In this document: in pieces, positions 30,572 to 36,337 of the stretch
Position numbering within the stretch: the first letter of the stretch is position 1
Layout of the letters: each line of letters opens with the position of its first letter
Assembly: GCA_024228575.1 (NCBI GenBank)
Contig: JAAETH010000109.1
Coordinates: 1 to 64,000, forward strand
Origin: Actinomycetes bacterium
Lineage (GTDB): Bacteria; Actinomycetota; Acidimicrobiia; Acidimicrobiales; Poriferisodalaceae
DNA length: 64,000 nucleotides
Reading direction: 5' to 3'
Notes under the pieces: generated by a model
What the model was told of the DNA's origin: nothing
What the model saw: the letters and a program-made list of their open reading frames with translations, nothing else
Database searches by the model: none
Made by a program: the position numbers and the translations under genes

Positions 30572-30589
30572 TGTTAAGCTAGCTTGACA
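30572..30589. promoter_or_regulatory. near-perfect 18-bp palindrome upstream of feoA
   Basis: TGTTAAGCT|AGCTTGACA is an inverted repeat matching at 8 of 9 positions, 81 bp before feoA. The AT-rich dyad resembles DtxR/IdeR-type boxes in size and general layout but does not match the IdeR consensus closely. Position and symmetry suggest an iron-responsive repressor site. Confidence 0.5.
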
Positions 30590-30669: not shown

Positions 30670-30921
30670 ATGTGTCCGACGCGGTTGTCGCAGCTACCGA
30701 CAGGCTCTCATGCCGTCGTGCTCGGCGTCGATCAGGGACCCTCGGGCGAAGGCCGTCGCCTCCAGGAAATCGGCTTTGTGCCCGGCACACCTGTCATCGT
30801 GGAGCGCAAGGCTCCCCTCGGAGATCCCATCGTGTTCGAAGTCAGGTCCACTCGCCTCGCTCTTCGGCGCCGTGCCGCCGACCTGATCGAGGTCGAGCTG
30901 ACGGGCGAACCGACCGGCTGA
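30670..30921 (+). CDS. feoA: ferrous iron transport protein FeoA
   Basis: An 83-aa SH3-like cytosolic protein that supports FeoB-mediated Fe(II) uptake. The core pattern G-E-GRRLQEIGFVPGTPVIVERKAPLGDPIVFEV is the FeoA domain, followed by a strand LALRRRAADLIEV. Its stop overlaps the feoB start by one base (TGATG). It is first in a feoA-feoB-nfu operon and sits behind a palindrome likely to be an iron-dependent operator. Confidence 0.93.
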   Translation: MCPTRLSQLPTGSHAVVLGVDQGPSGEGRRLQEIGFVPGTPVIVERKAPLGDPIVFEVRSTRLALRRRAADLIEVELTGEPTG

Positions 30922-32801
30922 TGGCCCCCCCGAACGTCACAGAAGCAGCAGCTTTCCAGATCGCAATTGTCGGCAGCCCCAACGCGGGAAAGACCAGCGT
31001 GTTCAACAGCCTGACCGGTGTCAGGTCGAGAACGGCAAACTACCCGGGCGTGACGGTGAGTCGCCGCGAAGCAACCGTCGAGATCGGCGGACGGATGGTC
31101 GAGCTCGTCGATCTTCCCGGAACCTACGGCCTCGAGCCGATCAGCCCAGACGAGGCCGTGGTCTCCGACGCCCTCCACGGACGTCTGGAAGGTTTCCGTC
31201 CACCCGACGCCCTGGTGATGATCGCCGATGCAACCTCTCTCGACCGATCACTCTTCCTGCTGGCCGAGTTTCTCGAGCTGGGGTTACCGACCTGCCTCGT
31301 GTTGACCATGGTCGACGAGGTCGCTGTTCGCCACGGTTCTGTCGACCTCACCCGACTGTCGGACGCCCTGGGCATACCCGTCGTCGGAGTCATCGGCCAC
31401 CGTGGTGTGGGAATGGCAACGGTGAAAGGTCTTCTCGTAGACCCTCACGACTGGATCCGCCCGATCGTCGCTCCCCCCGACACACTCGCCGAGCGCACTG
31501 CCTGGATCGATTCGATCATCGCCTCGGTCGTGGCGCCTCTCGACGCGGACGAACGCACCCGCCGGATCGACTCAGTTCTGCTCCACCCCGTCTGGGGGCC
31601 CGCTGCGTTCATCGCTGTCATGTTGGCGTTCTTCCAATCGATCTTCACGCTCGCAACACCCGCCGTCGACTGGCTCGAGACCGTCATCGGCGACTTCAGC
31701 GATTGGGTCAGGGACAACGTCGGCGGCACCTTTGGCGATCTGCTGGCCGACGGCGTCATCGCAGGTGTTGGTGGTGTTCTTGTCTTCGTTCCCCAGATCG
31801 CCCTGCTGTTCCTGATAATCGGATTGCTCGAACGTGTCGGCTACCTGGCCAGGGCTGCGCTGATGGCCGACCGCGTGATGGGACGGTTCGGGCTCGAGGG
31901 ACGCAGCTTCATCGCCATGTTGTCGTCGTTTGCGTGCGCCGTGCCAGGCATCATGTCGGCAAGAACCATCCCCAACGAGCGCGACCGCATCGTGACGATG
32001 ATGGCAGCTCCTCTCATGACCTGTTCGGCACGTCTGCCTGTGTTCACCCTGCTGATCGCGGCCTTCGTACCGAATGAGAGTGCTATTGGGCCGCTGCGGA
32101 GCCAAGGGCTTGCACTGTTCGGGTTGTATCTGTTGGGGGCACTATCTGGCCTGGTGTATTCGGCGGTACTCAGCAAGACGATGCTCGGCGGGCCCACCGC
32201 TCCCTTCATGATGGAGCTTCCCGCCTATCGTCGGCCGACTGCAACAGCGGTCCTTCTACACGTCTGGGACGGGGTCTGGTCGTTCGCCCGCAAGGCCGGA
32301 ACGGTCATTCTCGGCACGACCATCATCTTGTGGGTTCTGCTGTCGCTGCCGAACACGACCCCACCCGACACTCTGAGCGAAGCCGAACAAGCCAGCTATG
32401 AGATGGAGCACAGCATCGCTGGACGTGCAGGCAAGGCACTCGAGCCCGTGTTGGCGCCGCTCGGCTTCGAGTGGCGGACGAATGTGGCACTCATCGGCTC
32501 GCTCGCGGCGCGCGAGGTATTCGTCTCGACCCTGGCCATCACGACCGCCTCCGAGGACGAGGATGCCTTGGCCGACCGCATCGCCACGCTCGAGAACTCC
32601 GACGGATCGAGAGCATTCGACGGCCCCACCGTTGTCGCGTTGCTCATCTTCTTCGTCTATGCGCTGCAGTGTTTCTCCACGGTCGCGGTGCTGCACCGAG
32701 AGACGAACTCGTGGCGTTGGCCCGCAATAGCGATGAGCTCGATGCTGGGCATCGCGTATGTGGCGGCGCTCATCGGTCGCTCCATCGCGGAGCTTTTGTG
32801 A
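30921..32801 (+). CDS. feoB: ferrous iron transporter FeoB
   Basis: A 626-aa GTP-gated Fe(II) uptake protein. The N-terminal G domain has G1 GSPNAGKTS (18-26), the switch region YPGVTV, and G3 DLPGTYG (64-70). G4 reads TMVD (129-132) instead of the usual NxxD, which is unusual for guanine recognition. The membrane part has the Gate motifs, including a Cys in SSFACAVPGIMSART and a second in MTCSARLPVFTLLIAAF. It is shorter than the E. coli protein because it lacks an extended C-terminus. It overlaps feoA and nfu by one base on each side. Confidence 0.94.
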   Translation: MAPPNVTEAAAFQIAIVGSPNAGKTSVFNSLTGVRSRTANYPGVTVSRREATVEIGGRMVELVDLPGTYGLEPISPDEAVVSDALHGRLEGFRPPDALVMIADATSLDRSLFLLAEFLELGLPTCLVLTMVDEVAVRHGSVDLTRLSDALGIPVVGVIGHRGVGMATVKGLLVDPHDWIRPIVAPPDTLAERTAWIDSIIASVVAPLDADERTRRIDSVLLHPVWGPAAFIAVMLAFFQSIFTLATPAVDWLETVIGDFSDWVRDNVGGTFGDLLADGVIAGVGGVLVFVPQIALLFLIIGLLERVGYLARAALMADRVMGRFGLEGRSFIAMLSSFACAVPGIMSARTIPNERDRIVTMMAAPLMTCSARLPVFTLLIAAFVPNESAIGPLRSQGLALFGLYLLGALSGLVYSAVLSKTMLGGPTAPFMMELPAYRRPTATAVLLHVWDGVWSFARKAGTVILGTTIILWVLLSLPNTTPPDTLSEAEQASYEMEHSIAGRAGKALEPVLAPLGFEWRTNVALIGSLAAREVFVSTLAITTASEDEDALADRIATLENSDGSRAFDGPTVVALLIFFVYALQCFSTVAVLHRETNSWRWPAIAMSSMLGIAYVAALIGRSIAELL

Positions 32802-33436
32802 TGAGCGCGCCCAAGCGGCCGCGCCAGATCCACGTCGAACGCACCGCCGACCCGGCGGTGTTGCGCTGGGTACCTCATCACGACGCCCTCGACTCGGCAC
32901 CGCCAGGGCGACGAACCCTGCCCGATGGAGTTCCCCTGCATTCACTCGCCGCCGACGGATCGATCGCAGAGGTGGCTGTTCGGAACGGAAACGTACTCGT
33001 GCGCACCGAACATCCGGACACCTGGCACCAGACGGTGGGCCACGTGCAGACCGCCCTCCTGCTCGAGCTCGACGATCTCGACGATGACCCGCAGCACTGG
33101 CTGGTGACAGCGGTCGATGACACCGCTCCCCCACCGACCATCGACGAGGTCCAGCGCGTGGTCGATCGCTCTGCGGGTACCGTGTTCGCTTCGCACGGTG
33201 GCGCCATGACCGTGATAGCGGTCGACGAGTCGTCCGTCGTGCTCCACGGCGAGGGTGCTTGTTCGGGATGTTCACACAGCGACGAAACCGTGCTGGGCAC
33301 GATCGGGCCGGCCATACGCGCCGACTACCCGGACCTGGTCGAGATCATGATCGAACGCCAAGACCCTGAACTCGAGAGATCGATCCGAGAGGTGAAGCTC
33401 TCGCCCGTGCGATTCCTTCGCCAGAAGGGCCGCTAG
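32801..33436 (+). CDS. Nfu-type Fe-S scaffold protein
   Basis: A 211-aa protein. The N-terminus (IHVERTADPAVLRWVP, from about residue 10) resembles the Nfu N-terminal domain. The C-terminal NifU-like domain carries the cluster-binding motif GACSGCSHSD with C154 and C157. Nfu proteins carry [4Fe-4S] clusters to target enzymes. The ATG overlaps the feoB stop by one base, placing a cluster carrier as the third gene of a ferrous-iron uptake operon. The region between the domains (about 60-110) lacks recognised motifs. Confidence 0.85.
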   Translation: MSAPKRPRQIHVERTADPAVLRWVPHHDALDSAPPGRRTLPDGVPLHSLAADGSIAEVAVRNGNVLVRTEHPDTWHQTVGHVQTALLLELDDLDDDPQHWLVTAVDDTAPPPTIDEVQRVVDRSAGTVFASHGGAMTVIAVDESSVVLHGEGACSGCSHSDETVLGTIGPAIRADYPDLVEIMIERQDPELERSIREVKLSPVRFLRQKGR

Positions 33437-33491: not shown

Positions 33492-36212
33492 TCACTGCTC
33501 CCAGCTCTCCTCGATAGCGGCGTGCGCCGCGGCGAGCCGGGCCACGGGTACGCGATACGCAGAACAGCTGACGTAGTCGAGGCCGAGCCGCTGGCAGAGT
33601 CGGATCGACGCCGGGTCGCCGCCGTGTTCTCCACAGATGCCGACGACCAGATCGGGTCTGGTTTCGCGACCCTCGGTTATCGCCAGACCCATGAGACGAC
33701 CGACGCCTGCTTCATCGATGGACCTGAAGGGGTTCTCGTCGATGATGTGTTCATCGAGGTACCCGAGCAGGAAACTCGCTTCGGCATCGTCGCGACTGAC
33801 ACCGAGCGTCATCTGGGTCAGGTCGTTTGTTCCGAACGAGAAGAACTCGGCGTGTTCGGCCACCTGGCCAGCCGTGAGGGCAGCCCGAGGAACCTCGATC
33901 ATCGTTCCGATGGGGATCTTGATCGACGTCTTTCGTTCGTCGAACACAGCGTTCATCTCGGCCTCGATGAGCTTCCGGGCCGCGGCCATCTCGTTGGCGT
34001 TGCCCACGAGTGGCACCATGATCTCGGCATCGACCTCGTGGCCGTCGGCCTGGACATCGAGGGCGGCCTCGGTGATCGCCCTGGCCTGCATACGAATCAG
34101 GGCGCTGATCCTGAGTCCCAGCCTCACGCCGCGCAACCCCAGCATCGGGTTCTCTTCACGCAGTTCCTCGACGCGGGCCTGCATTGTCTTGACCTCGGCC
34201 AGCTCTTCGACGAGCGAGTCGACGCTCTCGAGGTCGCTTGCGTTCACCAGCCTGATACGGAGGTCGGCGGCCCTGGTGATGAGCTCGTCATGGTTCGGCA
34301 GGAACTCATGAAGTGGCGGATCGAGCAAGCGGATGATGACCGGATGGCCTTCCATCGCCCTGAAGAGCCCGTCGAAGTCGCCACGCTGCAGCGGCAACAA
34401 CAGGTCGATCGCCTCGCGCTGTTCGACCTGGGTCTCGGCTGTGATCATGTTCCGCATGATCAGCAATCGGTCGGAGGCAAAGAACATGTGCTCCGTGCGA
34501 CAGAGGCCGATTCCAGCGGCGCCGTAGCGTCGAGCACGCTCTGCCTCAACCGGATCGTCGGCGTTGGCTCTCACACCCAGTGTCCGGAACCCGTCGGCCC
34601 ACCCGAGCAGGGTCGACAACCATTCGTTGTCGAGATCGGGATCGATGGTCGGGATCTGATCCTGGTACACCCTGCCGGTGGTGCCATCGACAGACACCCA
34701 GTCGCCTTCGTGAATCTCGGTGTGGCCGACGGTCATCATTCGGGCCTGGAGGTCGATCTCGATGTCGGTCGCACCAACGACGGCGGGTTTGCCGAACTGG
34801 CGAGCGACCAGAGCCGCGTGACTCGTTCGGCCACCGCTCGACGTCAGGATGCCGACTGCGGCGAGCATGCCGTGGACGTCGTCTGGTTTGGTCTCGGGAC
34901 GCACGAGCAGGACGTCGCGGCCTTCGCCAACCCAGCGCTCGGCCAGGTCGGGGTCGAACGCCACCATGCCGACCGCCGCACCGGGCGACACGTTGAGCCC
35001 GGTCGTCAGCACCCCGGCGGCCTCGATGGCGACCGGGTCAAACTGTGGATGGAGGAAGAAGTCGATCTGGTCGGGGGTGACCCTGACGACGGCCTCTTCT
35101 CGACTGATGAGACCCTCGTTGGCCAGATCGACAGCGATCTTGACCGCCGCCTGAGCCGTGCGTTTGCCGGCTCTTGTCTGAAGGATCCAGAGTTTCCCTG
35201 CCTCGACCGTGAACTCCATGTCCTGCATGTCGCGGTGATGAGTCTCGAGTCGTTTGGCGATAGCCGCAAACTCGGCCGCCACCTCTGGCATGTCGTCACC
35301 GAGGTTTGTGATGTTCTTCGTCGGCCGAATGCCGGCTACGACATCCTCACCCTGGGCGTTGATCAGGTAATCACCTTCGAGGTGGTTTTCACCGGTCGTT
35401 GCGTCGCGGCTCATCGCCACACCGGTCGCGCAGTCGTTGCCCATGTTTCCGAACACCATCGTCACGACGTTGACGGCGGTACCGAGGTCGTGGTCGATAC
35501 CCGACGCGGTGCGATAGTCGAAGGCACGTTTGCCTCGCCAGCTCTCGAAAACGGCTTCAACCGCCATCCGGAGCTGCTCGTAGGGGTCGTTTGGAAAATC
35601 GACGTCCGAATGGAGGCCAACAACGGTCTTGAACGAGTTGATGATGACCCTGAGGTCGGCCGAGGACAGATCGGCGTCGCTGTCGACCTCGGCGCGTTCG
35701 CGTTGTGTCTTCAACACGTGTTCGAACGTTTCGTCGGCGACCCCGAGCACCACTCCCCCGAACATCTGGATGAGGCGGCGATACGAATCGAGAACAAAAC
35801 GCTCGTTTCCCGTCGCCTCGGCCATGCCCGCAACGACCTCGTCGTTCAGCCCTATGTCGAGAACGGTGTCCATCATTCCTGGCATCGAGAACTTGGCTCC
35901 CGAGCGACAGGCTACGAGCAGGGGGTTTTTGGGGTCACCGAAACTCTTCCCAGTCTGTTCCTCGAGCCAGGCCATCGACTCGAGGACCTGATCCCACAAA
36001 CCGTCGGGCATGACACCGTCGGCGTCCTGGTATGCGTTGCACGCCTCGGTCGTGACGACGAAGCCGGGCGGCACCGGGATGCCCTGCCTGGTCATGTCGC
36101 CGAGGTTGGCACCCTTGCCACCCAGAAGGCCGCGAACACCCTCCCAGTCGCCACCCACATACTCCTGCGCTTCATCAACCTGGTCGAATCGGTACAACCA
36201 ACGCCGCGTCAT
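33492..36212 (-). CDS. ppdK: pyruvate, phosphate dikinase
   Basis: A 906-aa enzyme interconverting pyruvate + ATP + Pi and PEP + AMP + PPi. The N-terminal nucleotide-binding domain has LLGGKGANLGDM and VACRSGAKFSMPGMMDTVL. The phosphohistidine domain has SSGGRTSHAALVAR with the catalytic H465. The C-terminal TIM barrel has GLCRTEHMFF and the catalytic Cys in GICGEHGGDP. The length fits the family. I start at ATG 36212, where GGAGAG precedes it, rather than the longer frame. With the isocitrate-lyase-family enzyme and beta-oxidation genes it would support gluconeogenic growth on lipids or organic acids (inference). Confidence 0.96.
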   Translation of the reverse strand: MTRRWLYRFDQVDEAQEYVGGDWEGVRGLLGGKGANLGDMTRQGIPVPPGFVVTTEACNAYQDADGVMPDGLWDQVLESMAWLEEQTGKSFGDPKNPLLVACRSGAKFSMPGMMDTVLDIGLNDEVVAGMAEATGNERFVLDSYRRLIQMFGGVVLGVADETFEHVLKTQRERAEVDSDADLSSADLRVIINSFKTVVGLHSDVDFPNDPYEQLRMAVEAVFESWRGKRAFDYRTASGIDHDLGTAVNVVTMVFGNMGNDCATGVAMSRDATTGENHLEGDYLINAQGEDVVAGIRPTKNITNLGDDMPEVAAEFAAIAKRLETHHRDMQDMEFTVEAGKLWILQTRAGKRTAQAAVKIAVDLANEGLISREEAVVRVTPDQIDFFLHPQFDPVAIEAAGVLTTGLNVSPGAAVGMVAFDPDLAERWVGEGRDVLLVRPETKPDDVHGMLAAVGILTSSGGRTSHAALVARQFGKPAVVGATDIEIDLQARMMTVGHTEIHEGDWVSVDGTTGRVYQDQIPTIDPDLDNEWLSTLLGWADGFRTLGVRANADDPVEAERARRYGAAGIGLCRTEHMFFASDRLLIMRNMITAETQVEQREAIDLLLPLQRGDFDGLFRAMEGHPVIIRLLDPPLHEFLPNHDELITRAADLRIRLVNASDLESVDSLVEELAEVKTMQARVEELREENPMLGLRGVRLGLRISALIRMQARAITEAALDVQADGHEVDAEIMVPLVGNANEMAAARKLIEAEMNAVFDERKTSIKIPIGTMIEVPRAALTAGQVAEHAEFFSFGTNDLTQMTLGVSRDDAEASFLLGYLDEHIIDENPFRSIDEAGVGRLMGLAITEGRETRPDLVVGICGEHGGDPASIRLCQRLGLDYVSCSAYRVPVARLAAAHAAIEESWEQ

Positions 36213-36337
36213 TTCTCTCCGATCTCGGACTGGCTCCAATCATCAGGAGAACGCTGTCGGGATGGAAGGGTCGGAGGACCCGGCTTCACGGGCTCGCCAC
36301 GCCCCGCGAGCTGGTGCACCGCTCGTGAGCGCGGCTC

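Follow-up and report, generated by a model that had tools for sequence, protein, structure and literature searches.

What is a gene for an Nfu-type Fe–S protein doing as the third gene of a ferrous-iron uptake operon? The question is raised by a feoA-feoB-nfu cluster in the window, which here means the whole 64-kb stretch of actinobacterial DNA that was analyzed. A preliminary description, made from the sequence alone, had noted this arrangement and suggested that the Nfu could either take on a sensing role or use the imported Fe(II) directly. The analysis presented here finds that in many actinobacteria, nfu is attached directly to the genes of the ferrous-iron importer. This position suggests a dedicated partner or sensor in the place that another small protein occupies in gut bacteria. 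Among the matches listed, the titles and opening abstracts of open-access papers do not describe a feoA-feoB-nfu arrangement. The linked third proteins may well go under the name “NifU family protein” in database entries.

Layout of the operon

By Pfam, the window holds a Feo system comprising FeoA and a FeoB with a G domain, Gate and FeoB_C regions (Table 1). The feoA/feoB and feoB/nfu junctions both read TGATG, so that the stop codon and the following start codon have one base in common, exactly as first described. For nfu, an alternative in-frame start, GTG, lies immediately 5′ of the ATG. The interval originally reported enclosed feoB and nfu correctly; it started at feoB and left feoA just outside. 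On its upstream side, feoA is preceded, on the same strand, by a gene for a DksA/TraR-type zinc-finger protein, and downstream of nfu there is a convergent pyruvate, phosphate dikinase gene (window 33492–36239).

The genome contains a second pyruvate, phosphate dikinase-like match (G000 C289:9886–11412), which is 46% identical to the window copy over residues 380–908. The two copies reflect either a strain mixture or paralogy. These copies, together with a genome larger than those of its relatives, raised the doubt that the contig had been misbinned. This was rejected, short of proof, as the window resembles two other contigs of the genome in composition, and the feo DNA does not stand out.

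Table 1. Features of the feo operon and the DNA upstream of it, in window coordinates
Feature	Position	Strand	Description
18-bp palindrome TGTTAAGCTAGCTTGACA	30572–30589	+	upstream of feoA; putative operator of a metal-responsive regulator
feoA	30670–30921	+	83 aa; Pfam FeoA 77.5 bits
feoB	30921–32801	+	626 aa; Pfam FeoB_N, Gate, FeoB_C; TIGR00437 420 bits (cut-off 316)
nfu-like gene, third of the operon	32801–33436	+	211 aa; Pfam NifU (PF01106) 39.4 bits (cut-off 27)
N-terminal Nfu_N-fold domain	32801–33112	+	residues 1–104; H11 and W23 invariant; assigned by predicted fold and profile bridge
C-terminal NifU domain	33149–33346	+	residues 117–182; Pfam; fold match 2z51, Z 10.5
CSGC motif (C154, C157; within GACSGCSHSD)	33260–33271	+	expected Fe–S ligands, by sequence

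The third protein is a divergent two-domain Nfu

The preliminary description called the third gene an Nfu on the strength of its NifU domain and CxxC motif, and this part stands; it overlooked the N-terminal domain, and the protein is not the ordinary Nfu of the genome, as explained below. The full-length predicted model has a mean pLDDT of 86.4, and in it the NifU domain superimposes on 2z51 over 77 aligned residues with an rmsd of 2.2. When modelled alone, the N-terminal domain reached a pLDDT of 88.6. Its fold matched the N-terminal domains of human and yeast Nfu1 (2ltm, Z 9.0, rmsd 2.9, 95 aligned; 2ltl, Z 8.8, rmsd 2.8, 99 aligned) and S. aureus SAV1430 (2ffm, Z 7.7); unrelated folds scored at most 5.8, and the Nfu_N-like entry 2k1h reached only Z 4.4. 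Foldseek also placed 2ltm and 2ltl as the top two matches, with modest E-values of 4e-3 and 6e-2.

The Pfam Nfu_N model (PF08712) did not match the window protein at E up to 10 or any of 41 aligned third proteins at E up to 1, and a search of solved structures with a profile of the N-domain returned only weak matches to unrelated proteins. A bridge at the level of sequence was provided by a protein (L186) that has both Pfam Nfu_N (49.5 bits) and NifU, and which is matched over both domains by the profile of the feo-linked proteins. Its N-terminal part scores 20.8 bits against the N-domain profile alone, where the best of 500 shuffles scores 7.2. The identity of the N-domain is drawn from the fold search and this bridge, and the feo-linked protein is thereby predicted to have the layout of NFU1, that is, an Nfu_N-fold domain followed by a NifU domain, with the N-domain being divergent. 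Membership of the NfuA family is not indicated: PF01521 has no match in the window protein, and the NCBIfam NfuA model gives 28 bits against a cut-off of 269. The bridging gene itself (L186:1114–1779, in an SZAS-2 MAG) lies directly after an ORF that, judged by eye, resembles an Mrp/ApbC-type ATPase.

The GACSGCSHSD site is present as first reported, with its two cysteines at positions 154 and 157 of the protein. An alignment of 41 rows was drawn from 46 third genes (described in the next section), omitting three truncated at contig ends (L106, L133 and L118), one that encodes the N-domain only (L095) and one that is broken (L136). PF01106 matched all 41 proteins, the window protein included, at E up to 1. 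Residues H11, W23, H132, G133, G134, G152, C154, C157 and T163 are invariant in the 41 rows, although for the cysteines this is partly by selection, as cut, broken and one-domain genes had been omitted. Within 23 N-domains, including that of L095, H11, R22 and W23 are invariant. The GxCxxC motif occurs in 42 of the 46 third genes, counting the window; the four without it are two of the contig-cut genes (L106, L133), L095 and the broken frame of L136. A [4Fe-4S] cluster is the expected ligand of the NifU domain.

In L095 (5845–6195, a Microthrixaceae MAG), the third gene encodes the N-domain alone, 116 aa in length and with no CxxC; the same genome has two PF01106 genes over the cut-off away from feo. 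The retention of an N-domain free of cysteines implies that the cluster site was dispensable at least once.

Could the third protein receive the Fe(II) that FeoB releases and hand it on to cluster assembly? Genetic linkage is consistent with such an iron acceptor, and the invariant His of the N-domain and the HGG ahead of CxxC could hold a metal. However, the context of the CxxC is ordinary for an Nfu and is the same in the other NifU domains compared, where HGG is found too. In addition, Nfu proteins are known as carriers of ready-made clusters. An acceptor role is improbable, and the original suggestion that the Nfu uses imported Fe(II) directly found no support in this analysis.

Other Nfu genes and FeoC in the source genome

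PF01106 has three matches in the source genome, and the feo-linked protein is the lowest scoring of these. Another, encoded on contig C466, resembles NfuA in its layout, with an A-type match below the cut-off followed by NifU; the remaining one, on contig C231, is a stand-alone Nfu of 98 residues. Alongside these two canonical Nfu genes, which are unlinked to feo as expected for paralogues of this kind, the feo-linked protein is a divergent third paralogue. The possibility that it is simply the ordinary Nfu of the genome was rejected on account of this paralogy.

The absence of FeoC, as originally stated, is borne out for the whole source genome: PF09012 finds nothing over its cut-off of 21 bits, the best score being 14.9, and it has no match in the third protein at E up to 10. 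A disguised FeoC or a FeoB-associated Cys-rich protein was likewise considered and rejected, as neither Pfam model matches the window protein or the 41 aligned proteins. FeoB itself was found in 2 of 39 genomes of the family, the second of which belongs to a different FeoB clade, and in 19 of 292 genomes of the class at E 1e-20, the source genome counted. The 38 other genomes of the family include 29 with matches to the C-terminal domain only and nine with none.

The gene follows one clade of FeoB

The best 80 of 140 loci from a search by FeoB similarity comprised 47 actinobacterial loci (L092–L136, L138 and L171) and 33 alphaproteobacterial loci, nearly all of the latter from Caulobacteraceae. 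When the frames 3′ of feoB were searched iteratively with a profile, 45 of these 47 actinobacterial loci and the window proved to have the third gene. In one more (L093), the contig stops 110 bases past feoB, yet the same third gene starts there. Consequently, an nfu-like gene or its start lies directly 3′ of feoB in 46 of the 47 actinobacterial loci among the best 80 of 140. The sole exception is L111, from a MAG named Mycobacterium, in which a FeoB of the linked clade is followed by a 293-residue frame with no Pfam match. Mechanically assigned starts of the third gene fall −39 to +11 nt from the feoB stop in 44 of 46 cases, window included.

By comparison, the third gene was found in none of the 33 alphaproteobacterial loci among the best 80 of 140, where a prepilin peptidase gene is present in the three that were checked. 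It was also found in none of 16 loci with other FeoB types from the same class or family, namely 15 of the 18 other FeoB-bearing genomes of the class and one genome of the family. A survey of the phylum added three more linked genomes (L231–L233). The recurrence of the feoA-feoB-nfu order in 46 of 47 loci (best 80 of 140) is more than chance. As the loci were fetched via FeoB, these counts establish that this FeoB clade has nfu; the converse, a feo system beside each such nfu, does not follow from them.

In a quick, midpoint-rooted tree that drew long-branch warnings, the nfu-linked FeoBs fall together on a single branch (51 rows, SH-aLRT 100). This clade spans many families and takes in both L111, with no third gene, and L095, with the N-domain only. 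Three of its loci (L096, L101 and L132) are labelled “none” in the tree owing to long mechanical ORFs, and the profile search finds the third gene in each.

These observations bear on the idea that the order was merely fixed by descent of a single operon, with nfu having no role related to feo. The linked cases seen belong to one FeoB clade, and the linkage may then reflect one founding event. Against this, the clade covers many families, and the order survives among third genes that overlap feoB in 28 of 46 cases and whose proteins, where aligned, share only 19–48% identity with the window protein. Furthermore, both copies in Dactylosporangium vinaceum, discussed below, retain the order, and simple hitchhiking is quite unlikely.

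The view from the Nfu side

The linkage was also approached from nfu, using a search with the 41-row profile in 396 genomes of the phylum, including the source; a two-domain match was defined by E <1e-30, and at most eight candidates were scored per genome. A profile was needed here: the window Nfu protein alone retrieved only itself from the 396 genomes at E 1e-8, and as a query against genome contigs it retrieved no relative, in a setting where the FeoB query worked. With at most eight candidates scored per genome, a two-domain Nfu was found in 5 of 396 phylum genomes. In four of the five, FeoB_C is located 540–660 nt upstream on the same strand. The fifth (G355, locus L230) has no FeoB_C match; its nfu gene is split over two frames and the 8 kb of sequence read there contain no feoB. 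The split gene is probably the remnant of a lost operon. Orthologues unlinked to feo had been named as evidence that would count against the original proposal; what emerged, within the candidates scored, was four genes beside FeoB and a fifth that is broken. FeoB_C occurs in 154 of the 396 genomes, compared with 5 for the two-domain Nfu, and thus most FeoB-bearing genomes sampled in the phylum do without this partner.

Nine genomes, reached via their loci and leaving out that of L097, were searched for PF01106. In four of these nine (G697, G698 with two operons, G699 and G700), every match is feo-linked. They are the isolates Dactylosporangium vinaceum and Salinispora vitiensis together with two MAGs, which are possibly incomplete. 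D. vinaceum has two feoAB-nfu operons in one genome (L103 and L113), with no other PF01106 match found.

The linked FeoBs have an altered nucleotide motif

Linked FeoBs also differ in the G domain. The G4 motif is T/SxxD in all 51 of them (T in 49, S in 2), compared with NxxD in all 33 alphaproteobacterial FeoBs and in E. coli. At the G5 site, whose columns are less surely aligned than those of G4, H, G, N or R is present in 49 of 51 linked FeoBs, where the alphaproteobacterial and E. coli controls have Thr. The 16 other FeoBs from the class or family have N and D at G4 in ten cases, with gaps in five and one misaligned; a cruder pattern search finds T-x-x-D in three of the 16. Since Arg occupies G5 in ten of these 16, it is the change at G4 alone that seems peculiar to the linked clade. 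According to PMC11406355, both G4 and G5 make contact with the nucleobase, and strict GTPases have Thr at this position of G5. With T/SxxD and a G5 other than Thr, the linked FeoBs are predicted not to be strict GTPases, and their nucleotide preference may be relaxed.

DNA upstream of feoA

Upstream of feoA lies a palindrome, TGTTAAGCTAGCTTGACA, in which 8 of 9 pairs are self-complementary. A counterpart in L092, TGTTAAGGTACCTTGACA, is also upstream of feoA, and relative to TGTTAAGCTAGCTTGACA its center is altered on both arms together. The pattern derived from these two sequences has a single site in the 64-kb window, with 0.05 expected. Palindromes of like quality occur upstream of several other loci, and the argument for an operator accordingly rests on the sequence common to the window and L092. 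We infer that the shared palindrome may be the operator of a related regulator.

An iron-box-like site (at least 14 of 19 positions) is present upstream of feoA in 34 of 49 clade loci; none occurs in 980 shuffles, in 26 alphaproteobacterial loci or in 6 others. In this comparison, the consensus was that of a DtxR/IdeR iron box and the shuffles were mononucleotide; the denominators are the loci in which feoA, and hence the upstream DNA, was located (49 of 51, 26 of 33 and 6 of 16, respectively). The excerpted text of PMC12161575 gives no iron-box sequence. The window site is weak, matching the IdeR-type consensus at 11 of 19 positions, and L111 has a site of 15 of 19 in spite of having no nfu. 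The box therefore tracks the FeoB clade and not nfu.

These sites also bear on the main rival explanation, which is a serious one. Here, nfu would be in the feo operon merely for expression when iron is scarce; its product would deliver or repair clusters in client enzymes and would make no contact with FeoB. The iron-box-like sites suggest expression in starvation, and the NifU domain and its CxxC are intact. E. coli requires NfuA under iron starvation and oxidative stress, and E. coli K-12 has nfuA on the same strand as feoC, ~2.7 kb further downstream. Three genes separate feoC from nfuA there (L091, 4164–10200). Several findings are not expected under this explanation. Two canonical Nfu genes are present in the source genome in any case, and so strict an adherence to one FeoB clade would be surprising in a housekeeping carrier. 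Nor would one expect a broken copy where FeoB is missing or persistence as a cysteine-free N-domain, each of which is known from one case (G355 and L095, respectively). Taken together, we consider co-expression in starvation somewhat less likely than the reading preferred below.

Discussion

The domains, the gene order, the conserved ligands and the tie to a single FeoB clade were observed. The reading that we prefer, at a confidence close to even, is that of a metal-regulated feoA-feoB-nfu operon whose third gene encodes an Fe–S protein dedicated to Feo, perhaps a FeoC-like sensor or regulator of FeoB. A role dedicated to Feo is favored over that of a general carrier because of the confinement to one FeoB clade, the tight or overlapping junctions, the lack of any other Nfu found in some genomes and the broken copy in a genome without FeoB. 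As to function, the idea of a feo-specific role that was put forward at the outset gains support from these observations; the function itself is inferred.

Evidence also exists on the other side. The source genome has two further Nfu genes, the third gene of L095 has no cysteines, and an iron box is present in L111 without nfu while that of the window is weak. In addition, a 2022 evolutionary survey, which used profiles for FeoA, FeoB and FeoC and so sought only FeoC as a third component, classed 95% of 5,365 Feo systems as FeoA and FeoB alone (PMC8749426, in the portion covered here). The third genes named in that portion are FeoC and a Cys-rich membrane protein, and its main text mentions neither Nfu nor NifU.

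A more specific version of the preferred reading is appreciably more tentative. It holds that the dedicated two-domain Nfu is the actinobacterial counterpart of FeoC, to which it is unrelated, and that its cluster senses iron and oxygen and gates FeoB, here an NTPase without the usual guanine motif. In the preferred reading itself, the operon would be under metal regulation. NifU domains would pair, with one [4Fe-4S] cluster held between the two CxxC motifs, and the Nfu_N-fold domain, which is retained alone in L095, would be the likelier docking part, on either FeoB or FeoA. Loading of the cluster would serve as a readout of iron and oxygen status and would tune the opening of FeoB, its NTP hydrolysis or its stability. 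In this way, the job proposed for the cluster-bearing FeoC of enterobacteria could be done by an unrelated protein.

If the dedicated reading is true, an Fe–S protein was recruited independently into the gene slot of FeoC and became tied to a FeoB clade with a nucleotide motif of its own. It would then be possible to test the idea of an Fe–S-controlled Feo transporter in harmless soil and marine actinobacteria, a lineage with a genetic tie between an Fe–S protein and iron import.

Comparison with known systems

The FeoB-associated Cys-rich protein of Firmicutes and Bacteroidetes resembles the protein described here in its position as third gene and in its cysteines (PMC8749426, as far as covered here), but its domain, PF12669, has no match among the third proteins of this study. 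NfuA, represented by E. coli nfuA and the C466 gene of the source genome, shares the NifU domain with HGG and GxCxxC; it differs in having another N-terminal domain (A-type) and in a gene that is not adjacent to feoB. NFU1-type Nfu proteins have the same domain order, folds and CxxC. Here, in contrast, the N-domain is too divergent for the Pfam model, H11 and W23 are invariant, and the gene is linked to feo.

A parallel in layout is feoABC of Gammaproteobacteria, in which feoA and feoB are also followed by a third gene for a cytosolic protein. In the sections of PMC8749426 and PMC11406355 consulted, the role of FeoC and the control of FeoB are called unclear or enigmatic; some FeoCs are described there as carrying an oxygen-sensitive [4Fe-4S] cluster and as interacting with NFeoB (the latter in PMC11406355). 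The systems differ in both partners: the third protein here is of NifU and predicted Nfu_N fold, with no match to FeoC, and the FeoB that precedes it has TxxD at G4, where that of E. coli has NxxD.
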